From: Christensenella timonensis
GTDB lineage: Bacteria > Bacillota > Clostridia > Christensenellales > Christensenellaceae
DNA: 64,000 bases
Direction: 5' to 3'
Assembly (NCBI RefSeq): GCF_900087015.1
Contig: NZ_FLKP01000002.1
Coordinates: forward strand, 1,798,001-1,862,000
Within the stretch, counting starts at the first letter, position 1, and the number at the start of each line of letters is the position of its first letter. Positions 36,618 to 41,911 of the stretch are shown in pieces. The notes below the pieces were generated by a model. It did no database searches. It saw only the letters and a list, made by a program, of their open reading frames with translations, and had not been told where the DNA came from. Made by a program: the position numbers and the translations under genes.

Positions 36618-37790
36618 TCAATAGGCGATCTCTAAAATGTTGCGTACGTCCGCCTCGCCCAACTCCGCGAAATGCCCGACGCTGCCGCCGCAATGCTCCA
36701 CACAGCGCCTAGCCATCTCGCCTAGGGAATCCTTGTCATTGATCCCCAGGTCGCGCAGCGAAGTCGGCATATTCAGGCTCTTGAAGAACGTCATCATGCG
36801 TTTGATTCCCTCTTTGATCGTCCAGTCCTGATTGTCAAAGGAATATTCCACATCAAACACCCGCATCGCAAACTGTACGAAGCGCTCCGGCTTGTTGGAG
36901 TACACATACTTCATCCACGCAGGAAAGATCACGGAAAGCCCCGCGCCATGCGATACGTCATATTTCGCGGACAGCTCGTGCTCGATCATGTGGGAGGCCC
37001 AATCCTCTTCGCGCCCCACGCCCAGCGTACCGTCATGCGCCATTTTGCATGCCCACATCGTTTCTGCGCGCGCCCTGTAATTTTGCGGGTCTGTGACCGC
37101 CGTCCGCCCGTAGCGCAGCAAAGACTTCATCACGCCCTCGCACATGCGATCCGTAACGTCCACGTCCTCCGTATTGGTGAAATACCGTTCCATGATGTGT
37201 GCAAACGCATCCACGATCCCCGCGGCCGTATGGTACGGCGGAACGGTGTAGGTAAGCTCGGGGTTCAGCACCGAAAACACCGGCCTTGAACGCTCGTCCT
37301 CATAAGCCATCTTCTCCATCGTATCTTCCCGCGTGACCACCATGCCGTTGGAAGACTCGCTTCCCGCGCCCGGGATCGTCAGCACCGTGGCGATCGGCAG
37401 GATCGCAAGGGCCTTTTTCTTGCCCAGAAAATAATCCCATACGTCGTCGCTGTTGGGCGTGCCGCAGGCAATCGCTTTCGCAGAATCGATAACGCTGCCG
37501 CCGCCTACCGCAAGGATGAAGCCGATCCCGTTGTGGCGGCATATATTGATGCCCTCGTATATGAGGCCCAGCCTCGGGTTGGGCTGGACGCCGCCCAGTT
37601 CAAACACCGCCAGCCCCGCGTCTTTCAAGGATTTCCGGATCCTGTCCAGGAGGCCGGAACGCTCGGCGCTGCCGCCGCCATAGTGCAGCAGTACCTTCTG
37701 GCTGTATTTTGCGATCTCTTCCCCTACGAGAAGCTCCGTCCCCTTGCCAAAAAAGACCTTGGTCGGATTAAAATATACGTCGTTATCCAT
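36618..37790 (-). CDS. Iron-containing alcohol dehydrogenase (butanol/propanediol type)
   Basis: 390 residues of the BdhA/YqhD-like group. NAD(P) loop AVGGGSVIDSAKAIA near residue 95, and metal ligands in DAFAHIMERYF and GLSVIFPAWMKYV plus the ASHMIEHELSAKYDVSHGAG stretch. It oxidises an alcohol or reduces an aldehyde with NAD(P)H. It follows the glycyl radical enzyme and activase genes in the same direction but after a terminator and with its own promoter. The layout recalls dhaB1-dhaB2-dhaT, where the dehydrogenase disposes of the aldehyde product; whether that holds here is inference. Confidence 0.9.
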   Translation of the reverse strand: MDNDVYFNPTKVFFGKGTELLVGEEIAKYSQKVLLHYGGGSAERSGLLDRIRKSLKDAGLAVFELGGVQPNPRLGLIYEGINICRHNGIGFILAVGGGSVIDSAKAIACGTPNSDDVWDYFLGKKKALAILPIATVLTIPGAGSESSNGMVVTREDTMEKMAYEDERSRPVFSVLNPELTYTVPPYHTAAGIVDAFAHIMERYFTNTEDVDVTDRMCEGVMKSLLRYGRTAVTDPQNYRARAETMWACKMAHDGTLGVGREEDWASHMIEHELSAKYDVSHGAGLSVIFPAWMKYVYSNKPERFVQFAMRVFDVEYSFDNQDWTIKEGIKRMMTFFKSLNMPTSLRDLGINDKDSLGEMARRCVEHCGGSVGHFAELGEADVRNILEIAY

Positions 37791-37886
37791 CTTGCGATCT
37801 CCCCTCTTTGCTAATTATTGTAATAACCAGATACCCATATTGATAAGACCTTAAACGGCAGGTCAGCCTACCTTGTATTCACTTAT

Positions 37887-37935: not shown

Positions 37936-37966
37936 AAAAAAACTACGTTTTCCAACGTAGTTTTTT
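37936..37966 (-). terminator. Terminator after the glycyl radical activase
   Basis: AACTACGT / ACGTAGTT stem, six-base loop, A and T runs on both sides. Confidence 0.85.
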
Positions 37967-37971
37967 ATGCT

Positions 37972-38859
37972 TTATCCGCCTATTTCCATCCTCACGGAAG
38001 TTAAGATGCCTTTGATACAATTTTCCACTTCACTTTCGTCCAGGCGCTCGATGCCCGGATCCCAATATGCACGGTTGAGGAAGGAATATTTATTTGCCGC
38101 CATCCTGTGATACGGCAGGAAATTCACTTCATCCACACCGATCTTTTCCGCAAAGCGAACGATATTCCCAAGCTCTCCTGTATCAAAGTTGAATTCAGGA
38201 ATGACCGGCACGCGTACCACGACACGTTTTGCAATCTTCGCAAGCTGCTCGCAGTTGTCCAGTATTTGCCTGTTTTCCACACCGGTATATTCCAAATGCT
38301 TCTTGCTGTCCGTACTCTTGATATCGAACAAAAACAGGTCGACCAAATTTGCGATCCTTTCAAAAGAAGCATATGGAACGTTGCCGCACGTTTCTATCGC
38401 CGTACCCAGCCCATTTTCGCGGCAGAGCGCCAGCGTTTCTTCCAGAAAATCCACCTGGAGCAGCGGCTCCCCGCCGCTGAACGTGACGCCTCCGCCCGTC
38501 CTTTCGTAGAAGGTAGTATCCTTGAGCACCTCGTCCAGCACCTGTGCGGGCGTCATATAGCCGCCCTTTACATATCTTGCATCGGCATAACATTCCTCTG
38601 CGCATTTCCCGCAGCCGGTGCATATGGATCGATCCATCCCATCGCCGCCCCGAACGGCCCCTGCCGTGCAAGCCGCCGCGCACGCACCGCAGCCGATACA
38701 CAATTCCGGGTTGAAAAGCACCTCCGGTTTTGCATGCATGGATTCCGGATTACAGCACCATTTGCAGCGCAGCGGACACCCTTTCAAAAACACCGTGGTA
38801 CGGATGCCCGGCCCGTCATGCACACAAAAGCGCTGGATATCGAATACGCAACCTTCCAT
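37972..38859 (-). CDS. Glycyl radical enzyme activating protein (radical SAM)
   Basis: 295 residues. The radical SAM motif CPLRCKWC (Cx3Cx2C) near residue 30 is preceded by HDGPGIRTTVFLKG; two ferredoxin-type clusters follow (CIGCGACAAAC and CTGCGKCAEEC), the insertion found in activases of dehydratase-type glycyl radical enzymes. TFSGGEPLLQ is the GGE motif. It abstracts hydrogen from the glycine of its partner using SAM. The ATG lies two bases after the partner's stop; a TTG at 38871 overlapping it would also be in frame. Located directly after the glycyl radical enzyme gene. Confidence 0.92.
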   Translation of the reverse strand: MEGCVFDIQRFCVHDGPGIRTTVFLKGCPLRCKWCCNPESMHAKPEVLFNPELCIGCGACAAACTAGAVRGGDGMDRSICTGCGKCAEECYADARYVKGGYMTPAQVLDEVLKDTTFYERTGGGVTFSGGEPLLQVDFLEETLALCRENGLGTAIETCGNVPYASFERIANLVDLFLFDIKSTDSKKHLEYTGVENRQILDNCEQLAKIAKRVVVRVPVIPEFNFDTGELGNIVRFAEKIGVDEVNFLPYHRMAANKYSFLNRAYWDPGIERLDESEVENCIKGILTSVRMEIGG

Positions 38860-38860
38860 A

Positions 38861-41224
38861 TCAATACTCAAGCAGGCTCGTACGGTCTATGATGTCGTCC
38901 TGGACTCCTTTGCCCAGCACTGTAAAGAACGCACTGTAGCCCGCGACCCGGACAACGAGGGAACGGTACTCATCAGGCGACTGCTGCGCGCGGATAAGGT
39001 CGTCGCGCGTGATCACGTTAAACTGCGTTTCCCAGACCCCGCAATCCACGATGCTGCGCATATACTCGCCGAATACGCGCTCGCCGTCCTTGCCATTGAA
39101 AATGGAAGGATGCAGGAGTTGGTTCAAGACCGAGCCATGGCCCGCACGTACATTGCACAGCTTCCCGGCAGATTTAAAGATGGCCGTCGCACCCTGCTTG
39201 TCGTCGCCGTGCGTCGGGGAGATCCCGCCGTCATTGAGCGGTTCGCCCGCATGCCTGCCGTTCGGCGTAGCCGCCGTGCGTTCACCGTTCGGTACATTGG
39301 CCGTAAGGTAATAGATCCCGGCGGTAAAGATCCCGCCCCGTGCATTCTTATATTTTTCCAATGCATCGCAGTATACCGCCATTGCAAAGCTGCTCATTTC
39401 GTCCGCTTCGTCAATATCGTTGCCAAATTTAGGAGCACGGTTTTTCAGCATCATCCGCAGCGGCTCTTCCCCTGCAAAATCATTTTTGAGCGCATGGATC
39501 AGCTGGTCCATTTCCAGCTTCTTGTCATCGAAAACAAGCTTTTTGACCGCCATCAGGGAATCGCCGACCGTAATGGGCGCAACGCCCAGCGGCGAAGTGA
39601 AATTGTACCTGGCGCCGCCGCGTTCAAAATCAACGCCTTTTTCGATACACCCGTCGATCACCACCGAACAGAACGGCAGAGAGCTGTATTTTTTATGGCA
39701 CATATCGATGATCCGGTCATACTGTACCAGCGCATCTGTGAAGTAGTTTACCTGCTTCCTGTATGCGGCCTTGACGTCGTCTATCGTCTTAAAGCCAGAC
39801 GCTTCCCCTGTATGCGGCCCCATCTGGACACCTGTGAGCATGCATTTCCCATCGTTGAGCGCCAGCTCCAGGCATTTAACGAGGTTGATATGCCCGGAAT
39901 TCCCCCAGCTGTTTGTCGTTCCGTCGACCACAGGTTCGCTGCATCCCAAAAAGCTGAAATTGTACGATTCATCCTTGCTGTAACCGATCCGCTCAACCGC
40001 TTCCTTGATCAGTACATCGTTGTAGATCTTTACCTTATTCAGGCCGGATTTTACATTTACGGTAGCCGCATCGATCAGGCGCTGCGAAGTATTCCGATGG
40101 ATCCTGACAGCGATATCCGGCTGCGAAAGGCCCACATCCCGGTCTGCTTCAAGGATCAGGATCGATATATCGTTTGTGATATCACTGCCGTCTTCCAGCG
40201 TTCCGCCGATCGTGATCGTTTGCCCGTGGGCCGGCCCCGTATTGACCGCCGTAGACTCGTTGGAAGCGATCTTATCCAATTCCGACAGTTTCAGGTAGAA
40301 ACATTCCATCAACTCCAGCGCTGCGTCGTGGTCGATTTTGCCGGCTTTCAAATCCGCTTCATAATATGGATAAAGGTATTTGTCGATCCTTCCCAACGCC
40401 ACGCCAAGGCCGTTGCCTTCCAGCAGGATCGTCATCTGGACGATGAAAACAAACTGCAGCGCCTCCCAATAAGAGGATGCCGGTTTCGCCGGTACATTCT
40501 CACAATTTTCAGCGATCTGCAGAAGCTCCGCTTTGCGGGCAGGATCTTTTTCCTTTTCCGCCAGGTCACGCGCGAGCACGGCAAACCGTTTCGTATAGTC
40601 GATCGTCGCCTGCATAATTTCGATACAGGACAAATAAAATTCACGCTTGTCTATAAAATCATCTTCGTTGATATCGAGCCCGGCTATCTTTTCCTTACAT
40701 ATATTGATGATTTTATCAAACCCTGTTTTGAGCAGGTACTCAAAATTCGCGACGATATGTCCCGGCGATTGCGAGGGGTAGTTTGCATTATAAAAAACAT
40801 TATAATCAATAATGCGCTGCAGCTCCTCGGGCACGCAGGCAGCAATACGCTCGTCAAGCGACCGCCCTTTCCAATACTTCAAACATTCGTGGACTTCCGC
40901 CATTTGCTCGTCGGTCACCGCGAACTGGTCTCCCTGGCGCGTGCTGAAATCGCCGATCTGCGCAGAGATCCACCCCGACGCATATTCAGGAAACAACGGC
41001 GCGCTCCGTACATACGGCGTATGACACCCGACCAAAAGCTCGTTTTCACGTATCGTGATCGTCATGTTTTCCATCACGTGGCGTATGGAAAGCGCGCGCT
41101 TCATTGGATCAGATTTATCCTCATTGTTTTTGTAGCTTTCCGTAACAAGGACTGCCCGTTCGGTATCCACCATCCTCGTAGCCGAAAGAAACGTGTCTTT
41201 TAGTGCTTCAATTCTACCGTTCAC
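38861..41224 (-). CDS. Glycyl radical enzyme, dehydratase/lyase-like, substrate unassigned
   Basis: 787 residues, PFL-fold. The glycyl radical loop VRVAGYSAFF places the radical at Gly762, and the thiyl loop FLGCSEPV places Cys428 and Glu430, the Cys-x-Glu pattern of diol dehydratases, choline lyase and hydroxyproline dehydratase (true PFL has Cys-Cys). The usual middle residue is Val; here it is Ser. His156 (SPGHIV) matches the catalytic His of glycerol dehydratase, but a serine and an aspartate contacting glycerol appear replaced (LEGNG; SWGNS, Asn442), so glycerol is unlikely. GTG start with GGAGG eight bases upstream. Co-transcribed with its activase; no microcompartment genes nearby. Confidence 0.9.
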   Translation of the reverse strand: MNGRIEALKDTFLSATRMVDTERAVLVTESYKNNEDKSDPMKRALSIRHVMENMTITIRENELLVGCHTPYVRSAPLFPEYASGWISAQIGDFSTRQGDQFAVTDEQMAEVHECLKYWKGRSLDERIAACVPEELQRIIDYNVFYNANYPSQSPGHIVANFEYLLKTGFDKIINICKEKIAGLDINEDDFIDKREFYLSCIEIMQATIDYTKRFAVLARDLAEKEKDPARKAELLQIAENCENVPAKPASSYWEALQFVFIVQMTILLEGNGLGVALGRIDKYLYPYYEADLKAGKIDHDAALELMECFYLKLSELDKIASNESTAVNTGPAHGQTITIGGTLEDGSDITNDISILILEADRDVGLSQPDIAVRIHRNTSQRLIDAATVNVKSGLNKVKIYNDVLIKEAVERIGYSKDESYNFSFLGCSEPVVDGTTNSWGNSGHINLVKCLELALNDGKCMLTGVQMGPHTGEASGFKTIDDVKAAYRKQVNYFTDALVQYDRIIDMCHKKYSSLPFCSVVIDGCIEKGVDFERGGARYNFTSPLGVAPITVGDSLMAVKKLVFDDKKLEMDQLIHALKNDFAGEEPLRMMLKNRAPKFGNDIDEADEMSSFAMAVYCDALEKYKNARGGIFTAGIYYLTANVPNGERTAATPNGRHAGEPLNDGGISPTHGDDKQGATAIFKSAGKLCNVRAGHGSVLNQLLHPSIFNGKDGERVFGEYMRSIVDCGVWETQFNVITRDDLIRAQQSPDEYRSLVVRVAGYSAFFTVLGKGVQDDIIDRTSLLEY

Positions 41225-41388: not shown

Positions 41389-41442
41389 TAATGTTCCTCT
41401 GACATTTATTTACTTTTTTTGAATCCGATGATTTTGGGCAAC

Positions 41443-41478
41443 AAAAAAGCCCTTAACTCTGCTAGTTAAGGGCTTTTT
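41443..41478 (-). terminator. Terminator of the tRNA operon
   Basis: Fourteen-bp stem AAAAAGCCCTTAAC / GTTAAGGGCTTTTT, seven-base loop, just past tRNA-Lys. Confidence 0.9.
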
Positions 41479-41481
41479 CTT

Positions 41482-41557
41482 TGGTGACCCACCGGAGATT
41501 CGAACTCCGGACACCTTGATTAAAAGTCAAGTGCTCTGCCAACTGAGCTAGTGGGTC
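41482..41557 (-). tRNA. tRNA-Lys (UUU)
   Basis: Cloverleaf folds on the minus strand: acceptor GACCCAC/GTGGGTC, D arm with AGTTGG, anticodon loop CTTTTAA, T arm CGGAG-TTCGAAT-CTCCG, CCA encoded. Last tRNA of a four-gene operon. Confidence 0.97.
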
Positions 41558-41635
41558 ATTTTTTGGAACGTTCATTATTATAGCACGGCCCGATTATCTT
41601 GTACAGCATTTTTTCATATGCCGTTTGCTTTTAAA

Positions 41636-41710
41636 TGGCTGGGGTAGCTGGATTTGAACCAGCGCATGCAGGAATCAAAATCCTGTGCCTTACCGCTTGG
41701 CGATACCCCA
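41636..41710 (-). tRNA. tRNA-Gln (UUG)
   Basis: Acceptor TGGGGTA/TACCCCA, anticodon loop TTTTGAT giving UUG, T loop TTCAAAT, discriminator G and encoded CCA. U1-A72 acceptor start is the usual identity feature of tRNA-Gln. Confidence 0.96.
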
Positions 41711-41735
41711 TCGCAGGCCGTCACAGATAATAAAG

Positions 41736-41813
41736 TGGGGTGAGTAGTGGGATTCGAACCCACGACCTCCAGGGCCACAACCTGGCGCTCTAACCAACTG
41801 GGCTATACCCACC
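41736..41813 (-). tRNA. tRNA-His (GUG)
   Basis: Acceptor GTGGGTA/TACTCAC with an encoded extra G at -1 opposite C73, the tRNA-His identity pair; anticodon loop TTGTGGC; CCA encoded. Confidence 0.96.
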
Positions 41814-41834
41814 ACGTAGCTTATTATTATCCAA

Positions 41835-41911
41835 TGGCGCGCCTGAAGGGATTCGAACCCCTGGCACACGGCTTAGAAGGCCGTTGCTCTATCCAACTGA
41901 GCTACAGGCGC
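41835..41911 (-). tRNA. tRNA-Arg (UCU)
   Basis: Acceptor GCGCCTG/CAGGCGC, anticodon loop CTTCTAA giving UCU, T arm AGGGG-TTCGAAT-CCCTT, CCA encoded. First gene of the operon. Confidence 0.96.

Follow-up and report, generated by a model that had tools for sequence, protein, structure and literature searches.

Glycyl radical enzymes (GREs) perform chemistry that is possible to few other anaerobic enzymes, and their gut-relevant substrates include choline, hydroxyproline, isethionate, and 1,5-anhydroglucitol. The sulfonate residues of isethionate sulfite-lyase (IslA) are Arg189, Gln193, and Arg678, and the contact positions of DhaB1 are what we take to be 164, 281, 282, 339, 435, and 447. In E. 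coli, fsa genes lie close to both ybiW and pflD, and the pflD locus holds PTS genes, ptsP, fsa, and gldA. Passages of PMC7077986, PMC8473560, and PMC11528403 describe the chemistry of the family, in which an activase makes a glycyl radical, a thiyl radical is formed on a cysteine, and hydrogen is abstracted from the substrate; according to the same passages, the glutamate of the CXE motif lies next to the substrate hydroxyl in most GRE eliminases. Parts of PMC7077986 name the residues D278, S334, D339, F340, Y450, and T645 of HypD, and parts of PMC12441222 report that YbiW and PflD cleave 1,5-anhydrohexitol 6-phosphates after PTS uptake.

The window, that is, the whole 64,000-nucleotide stretch of Christensenella timonensis DNA that was analysed, belongs to a genome of 2.65 Mb in two contigs. 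It contains a GRE gene and an activase gene with the following features.

38861–41224, minus strand: GRE gene, an intact 787-codon frame with a GTG start
38933–38950, minus strand: codons of the glycyl loop RVAGYS, residues 759–764, with the radical Gly762 (counted from the frame)
39890–39901, minus strand: codons of Asn442 to His445; Asn442 aligns with DhaB1 D447 and His445 with HypD Y450
39935–39943, minus strand: codons of Cys428-Ser429-Glu430, the CXE motif with Ser (counted from the frame)
40028–40036, minus strand: codons of Lys397-Val398-Lys399
40223–40225, minus strand: codon of Gly334, aligned with DhaB1 Y339 and HypD F340
40403–40408, minus strand: codons of Leu273-Gly274, aligned with DhaB1 H281-S282
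40757–40759, minus strand: codon of His156, aligned with DhaB1 H164 and HypD H160
37972–38871, minus strand: radical SAM activase; the TTG at 38871 gives the longest frame, but the start positions of relatives correspond to an ATG at 38859, which is the suggested start

A GGAGG lies 8 nt 5' of the GTG start (read by eye). The product has the features of GRE membership: PFL-like (656.4 bits) and Gly_radical (83.5 bits) Pfam domains, the glycyl loop, the catalytic cysteine in the loop LGCSEPV (C428, S429, E430), and a nearby activase, which lies directly 3' of the GRE gene, carries a CPLRCKWC motif (by eye), and scores 346 bits against TIGR02494 (cutoff 174.35). An earlier note, made from the letters of this DNA, had listed a glycyl loop, an activase, and a Cys-x-Glu motif, and these were found as RVAGYS, the adjoining gene, and C428-S429-E430. 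Its statements that the catalytic Cys, Glu, and His are kept and that the length of 787 residues equals that of DhaB1 also hold (C428, E430, and H156; 1r8w has 787 residues). With CXE (C428, E430) and His156 the eliminase signature is present, the middle residue being Ser rather than Val or Ile, and by these sequence features the product, an oxygen-sensitive radical enzyme, is almost certainly an eliminase-type GRE. An 861-codon open frame runs antisense over the whole gene (window positions 38618–41203, plus strand) and was taken as a base-composition effect.

The broad subfamily TIGR01774 is the sole NCBIfam model passed by the window GRE (723.9 bits, cutoff 678.2), and no equivalog cutoff was reached among the models scored. 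The best equivalog model was HpfG (NF048009, 602 bits, cutoff 1000); the scores were 558.5 bits for HypD (NF043068, cutoff 1100), 555.4 for HpsG (NF048011, cutoff 1000), 545.5 for PflD (NF007437, PRK09983, cutoff 1109), and 528.9 for CutC (TIGR04394, cutoff 1050). For HplG, arylacetate decarboxylases, and benzylsuccinate synthases, PDB or NCBIfam scores were below that of DhaB1 or far under cutoff, and IslA, compared by PDB score alone, gave 412.8 bits (7kq3) versus 587.5 for 1r8w. Among solved structures, 1r8w ranked first in both the single-sequence and the profile search, followed by 9rco and 5i2a in the former and by 5i2a and 9rco in the latter. Identity to the eight reference rows of our tree (PD, DhaB1, HypD, CutC, YbiW, PflD, an HpfG-type enzyme, and a Moraxella GRE) is 31–39%, and to other aligned GREs outside the clade described below about 40% at most; thus a check for high-identity grouping with an enzyme of known substrate found none among the references in the tree. 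Cutoffs, alignment, tree, and pocket residues together rule out HypD, CutC, HpfG, HpsG, and PflD identities, and the substrate is very probably not one of those used by the tested GREs of known function. The suggestion of the earlier note that this GRE may have an undescribed substrate is supported in that the enzyme lies outside the annotated groups tested, by the cutoffs and by identities of at most 39% to the references; the product-handling role that the note proposed for a neighbouring dehydrogenase is not supported.

DhaB1 (1r8w) and PD (5i2a) share the fold family, Cys, Glu, His, and glycyl loop with the window GRE, to which DhaB1 is 38.3% and the Kosakonia plasmid GRE of a Pdu locus (L071, PD type) 38.8% identical. 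In the 1r8w alignment, DhaB1 H164, C433, and E435 correspond to H156, C428, and E430, whereas H281, S282, Y339 (Phe in PD), and D447 of the presumed contact set are replaced by Leu273, Gly274, Gly334, and Asn442, WHD (447) becomes WGN (442), and CVE becomes CSE. Lys397 and Lys399 further set the window GRE apart from both enzymes. The change of a contact Ser to Gly and of the Asp region to Trp-Gly-Asn, described before, is thus seen in the alignment (G274 and WGN at 442), and the predicted pocket is indeed altered; that description was incomplete, as it missed H281 to Leu273, Y339 to Gly334, and Lys397/Lys399. An AlphaFold model built from four rows (mean pLDDT 33.9, pTM 0.24) gave no usable pocket.

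The window GRE belongs to a clade of eight rows, which forms one side of a branch with SH-aLRT 100 in a tree of 54 rows (52 different), and 99 when five pocket segments are removed. Six rows, the window GRE included, are 72–100% identical to it; the relatives at 72–80% come from a chicken MAG of Candidatus Heteroruminococcus (L052), Christensenella sp. UBA5399 (L053), Christensenella hongkongensis HKU16 (L054), a Lachnospiraceae MAG (L055), and genome G507 (L059), and the more distant members are L060 (50%) and L062 (44%). At the L062 locus (G1117:C22, 1724–10570), the gene of the CSE clade shares about 9 kb with two other GRE genes. Ser429 is present in 8/8 clade rows and in 0/46 other GREs, the latter being the tree rows minus the clade, with near-copies among them; chance does not account for this split. 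The positions invariant in the clade and found in none of the 46 others are L273, N322, P331, D361, D370, L426, S429, S439, F533, and N664. Both K397 and K399 occur in all eight rows, versus 2/46 and 3/46 of the others, respectively; Gly334 is also found in 12/46 others. Two CVE GREs outside the clade, L015 and L048, have both lysines (KPK). Since six of the eight clade rows are close relatives, the weight of this conservation rests on L060 and L062.

The middle Ser had been called unusual in itself. It is fixed in the clade and absent from the 46 others, but GREs often carry something other than Val in the middle: 8 of the 16 in the window genome do, which removes non-Val as a mark of rarity. 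The informative point is that Ser is fixed within one clade. It should be noted that the tree takes in 13/16 GREs of the window genome (L014 and L023 did not pass an ORF and motif filter, and L024 was taken out), that partial L039 and L046 were left out and L047, L050, and L065 were missed by the filter, that L009, L026, L027, L056, L057, L058, L061, and L063 were omitted as second copies of tree rows, and that L053, whose sequence closes with a stretch of X, was cut to 743 residues. The Moraxella, CutC, and HpfG references have long branches and unsure placement.

Matches were found, with the window genome included, in 4/396 genomes of an order sample (E up to 1e-210) and in 2/391 and 2/398 genomes of class and phylum samples (E up to 1e-205), all samples overlapping. 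A clade profile (E up to 1e-240) gave matches in 1/4 and 5/67 genomes of two further orders, nine rows in all: two are clade members already counted (G1117 and G507), and six lie outside the clade, of which L064 and L067–L070 show the pocket letters of PD/DhaB1 and L066 has CAE; the ninth row is L065. Viral contigs yielded one remote relative, which is partial (35% across residues 1–288 of the query), and 142 plasmid records had a match, all under 60% identity. The dN/dS values were 0.05 and 0.055 in two of ten ortholog pairs; the other eight had saturated synonymous sites. Searches of the open-licence PMC literature turned up no paper on the CSE clade.

The borders of the GRE/activase pair are marked by the following features.

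36618–37790, minus strand: iron alcohol dehydrogenase (ADH), a genus core gene, probably outside the system
37937–37966, no strand assigned: terminator-like hairpin between activase and ADH, found by the scan on the plus strand only
41439–41483, no strand assigned: 20-nt inverted repeat with A/T tracts on the tRNA-Lys side, the upstream border of the two-gene unit
41482–41911, minus strand: tRNA cluster (Lys, Gln, His, Arg), which forms the opposite border of the insertion site

On the tRNA-Lys side, the DNA of the window ceases to resemble the corresponding genus loci at 41441–41482, and the resemblance returns at 37790–37808. GRE and activase look like a stand-alone two-gene insertion in the window genome; no insertion machinery or long flanking repeat was seen around the unit in the window sequence and the repeat scan. 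Because the pair has no counterpart at the conserved site in 5/5 genus genomes, the unit appears to move, and gene contexts may mislead. The region holds 8 terminator-like sites versus 5.4 in shuffles (sd 2.3), little above expectation, and 6 promoter-like sites versus 5.7 expected, one 5' of the GRE gene and one 5' of the ADH gene on their own strands. With counts near shuffle level, these sites were weighed by position only. The hairpin between activase and ADH has A and T tracts; read by eye on the minus strand, its stem has seven pairs, with seven T directly after it.

The iron ADH had been proposed to handle an aldehyde product of the GRE. Its orthologs are 72–89% identical in 5/5 other genus genomes (G001–G005), where the SbcC-SbcD-ADH order is kept (12–13 kb around each ADH) and neither GRE nor activase was found in the same 12–13 kb. 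Four tRNAs and a glycosyltransferase lie near the ADH in these five genomes, the tRNA-glycosyltransferase block being inverted in G001 (L095), and some of them have a small frame between ADH and tRNAs. G001–G004 have no match to the window GRE under 1e-210, and G005 has a GRE orthologue on contig C22, with the ADH on C1. Since the ADH is kept without the GRE in the genus and a terminator-like hairpin lies between the two, it says little about the GRE product; it is probably unrelated to the window GRE, and the proposed partnership was rejected on these grounds.

No sugar gene lies beside the window GRE. Among its relatives, six of seven have a sugar transporter part, a carbohydrate kinase, or an aldolase nearby, a raw count over 7.6 to 19 kb read per locus, taken without a random-locus baseline. 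The following family names are loose, because the scores behind most of them fall short of the curated cutoffs.
The L054 locus has an ascorbate-family PTS IIC (264 bits, cutoff 380), a regulator with an EIIA domain, an FGGY kinase (XylB 343.9, cutoff 380.25), an EI-like protein (225.5, cutoff 341.7), GRE, activase, and DUF6144. In L059, a PTS IIC above the ascorbate cutoff (463.8, cutoff 380) and a second activase-like frame accompany GRE, activase, and a PHP protein. L052 combines a PfkB kinase, ABC parts with a Peripla_BP_4 protein, and an MFS protein with GRE and activase; beyond the activase follow EIIA, a GAT-family IIC (269.5, cutoff 542.2), a regulator, and a class II aldolase (best 139.8, cutoff 264). 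The FGGY kinase of L053, divergent from the GRE, is 85% identical to that of L054, with a zinc dehydrogenase and an SMP-30 protein further off. ABC parts with a Peripla_BP_4 protein and a HAD protein flank the pair in L055. L060 has ABC parts (by eye), an Asp/Glu racemase-like protein, GRE, and activase, next to which lie a TAL_FSA protein, then a Lar_N protein and a DUF1537-type kinase; the recognised neighbours of L062 are two further GREs and an activase only. Contexts thus vary between carriers, and FGGY-type genes are common (nine matches under 1e-60 in the window genome), and the pointer of these neighbourhoods to a carbohydrate-derived substrate is suggestive only.

Taking the pocket, clade, and neighbourhood data together, we consider the window GRE to be an eliminase for a carbohydrate-derived, possibly anionic substrate, of a clade outside the assigned groups tested (probability roughly 0.55). 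Taken separately, a carbohydrate-derived substrate is somewhat probable, and a phosphorylated or otherwise anionic one is a tentative suggestion. The catalytic residues are kept and the chemistry of the family is established, and on this basis we infer a reaction cycle in which the activase would put the radical on Gly762, from which it would pass to Cys428 as a thiyl radical. Cys428 would then take a hydrogen atom from a hydroxyl-bearing substrate carbon, Glu430 and His156 would handle the hydroxyl proton, and a leaving group would depart from the neighbouring carbon, with water or another C-O bond as the likeliest case. The substrate would be polyhydroxylated and larger than glycerol, and it may be anionic, as a sugar acid or as the phosphate of a sugar or polyol. 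The grounds for this are the loss of the packing aromatic and the small-diol contacts, in whose place stand Leu, Gly, Gly, and Asn, the invariance of two lysines, and the position of most relatives near genes for sugar transport, kinases, or aldolases. Lys397 and Lys399 may hold the anion if they face the pocket. The lean towards a phosphorylated substrate comes mainly from the parallel between the gene content of these loci and that of YbiW/PflD loci.

The best-surviving alternative, in itself quite unlikely, is an eliminase for a charged non-carbohydrate substrate (a sulfonate, amino acid, quaternary amine, or similar), the sugar neighbours being accidental. The mobility of the unit would agree with such accidental contexts, and Lys399 is shared with the HpfG-type (2S)-3-sulfopropanediol dehydratase L076, which has Gly334 as well. 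L076 nevertheless differs in its overall sequence (33.2% identity), in CVE, His273, and Asp442, and in lacking Lys397, and it scores 1643.8 bits against the HpfG model (cutoff 1000), whereas the window GRE stays far under the HpfG, HpsG, CutC, and HypD cutoffs. HypD (trans-4-hydroxy-L-proline dehydratase) shares the core GRE residues, its H160 being equivalent to H156, but the listed residues D278, S334, D339, F340, Y450, and T645 align with L273, N328, H333, G334, H445, and L640 (numbering by motif), so that Leu and His stand at the positions of the acids D278 and D339. In addition, no sulfonate or amine gene was named among the neighbours scanned, which are a part of all neighbours.

Less likely again is a diverged small-diol dehydratase acting on glycerol, 1,2-propanediol, or a near homologue, with the aldehyde reduced by an ADH, perhaps the neighbouring one. 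DhaB1 is the nearest solved structure by both sequence and profile, an iron ADH adjoins the activase, and although the clade is separate from PD/DhaB1 in the tree itself, a branch shared by the two is not rejected (p-AU 0.251). Nevertheless, PD, DhaB1, and L064 keep H281, S282, an aromatic residue at 339, and D447, where the window GRE has Leu, Gly, Gly, and Asn, and the ADH is a genus core gene that is present without the GRE.

Radical glycolysis of the known type on 1,5-anhydroglucitol 6-phosphate or 1,5-anhydromannitol 6-phosphate is very unlikely: the PTS IIC genes by L052, L054, and L059, the EI-like protein of L054, and the TAL_FSA protein of L060 resemble the PTS, fsa, and dehydrogenase genes of the pflD locus, and eliminase-type residues are shared, but YbiW (in another supported branch) and PflD lie elsewhere in the tree, are 34% identical to the window GRE, carry CIE and CVE and His273/Ser274 or Ser273/Ser274 without Lys397/399, thus differing at most listed pocket positions, and L016, a different GRE of the window genome, already sits on the branch of YbiW. 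It is because of this separate tree place and different pocket that we do not name anhydrohexitol phosphates as the substrate.

Returning to the carbohydrate-derived substrate, a more specific proposal, somewhat unlikely in its entirety, is that the enzymes of the clade are radical lyases whose substrate, not recognised to date, is a sugar acid or the phosphate of a sugar or polyol. In such a route, the compound would be taken up by PTS or sugar ABC transporters or phosphorylated by FGGY or PfkB kinases, the CSE enzyme would dehydrate or open it with Lys397 and Lys399 at the anionic end, and class II or FSA-type aldolases would split the product.

The window genome (G000) encodes 16 GREs, of which 14 pass the TIGR01774 cutoff and none meets an equivalog cutoff. 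The CXE middle residue is Val in eight of them and Ser, Ile, Leu, Asp, Asn, Cys, Gly, and Thr once each, the Asp, Asn, Cys, Gly, and Thr variants being among L014, L017, L021, L022, and L024. At another site (L100/L101, G000:C1:197000–228000), four GREs lie in about 20.7 kb (C1:199880–220544), each or nearly each with an activase, surrounded by ABC transporter parts, a PfkB kinase 61% identical to that of L052, and a class II fructose-bisphosphate aldolase family protein.

Overall, dropping the ADH link takes away a misleading hint to the product, and the residue fingerprint, a named carrier (C. hongkongensis HKU16), and the carbohydrate neighbours give a testable path to a new substrate. With 16 GREs and none at an equivalog cutoff, the window genome is a rich source for new radical enzymes. 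If the proposed route is true, the clade would provide a second radical route into glycolysis beside YbiW/PflD, spread as a two-gene unit.
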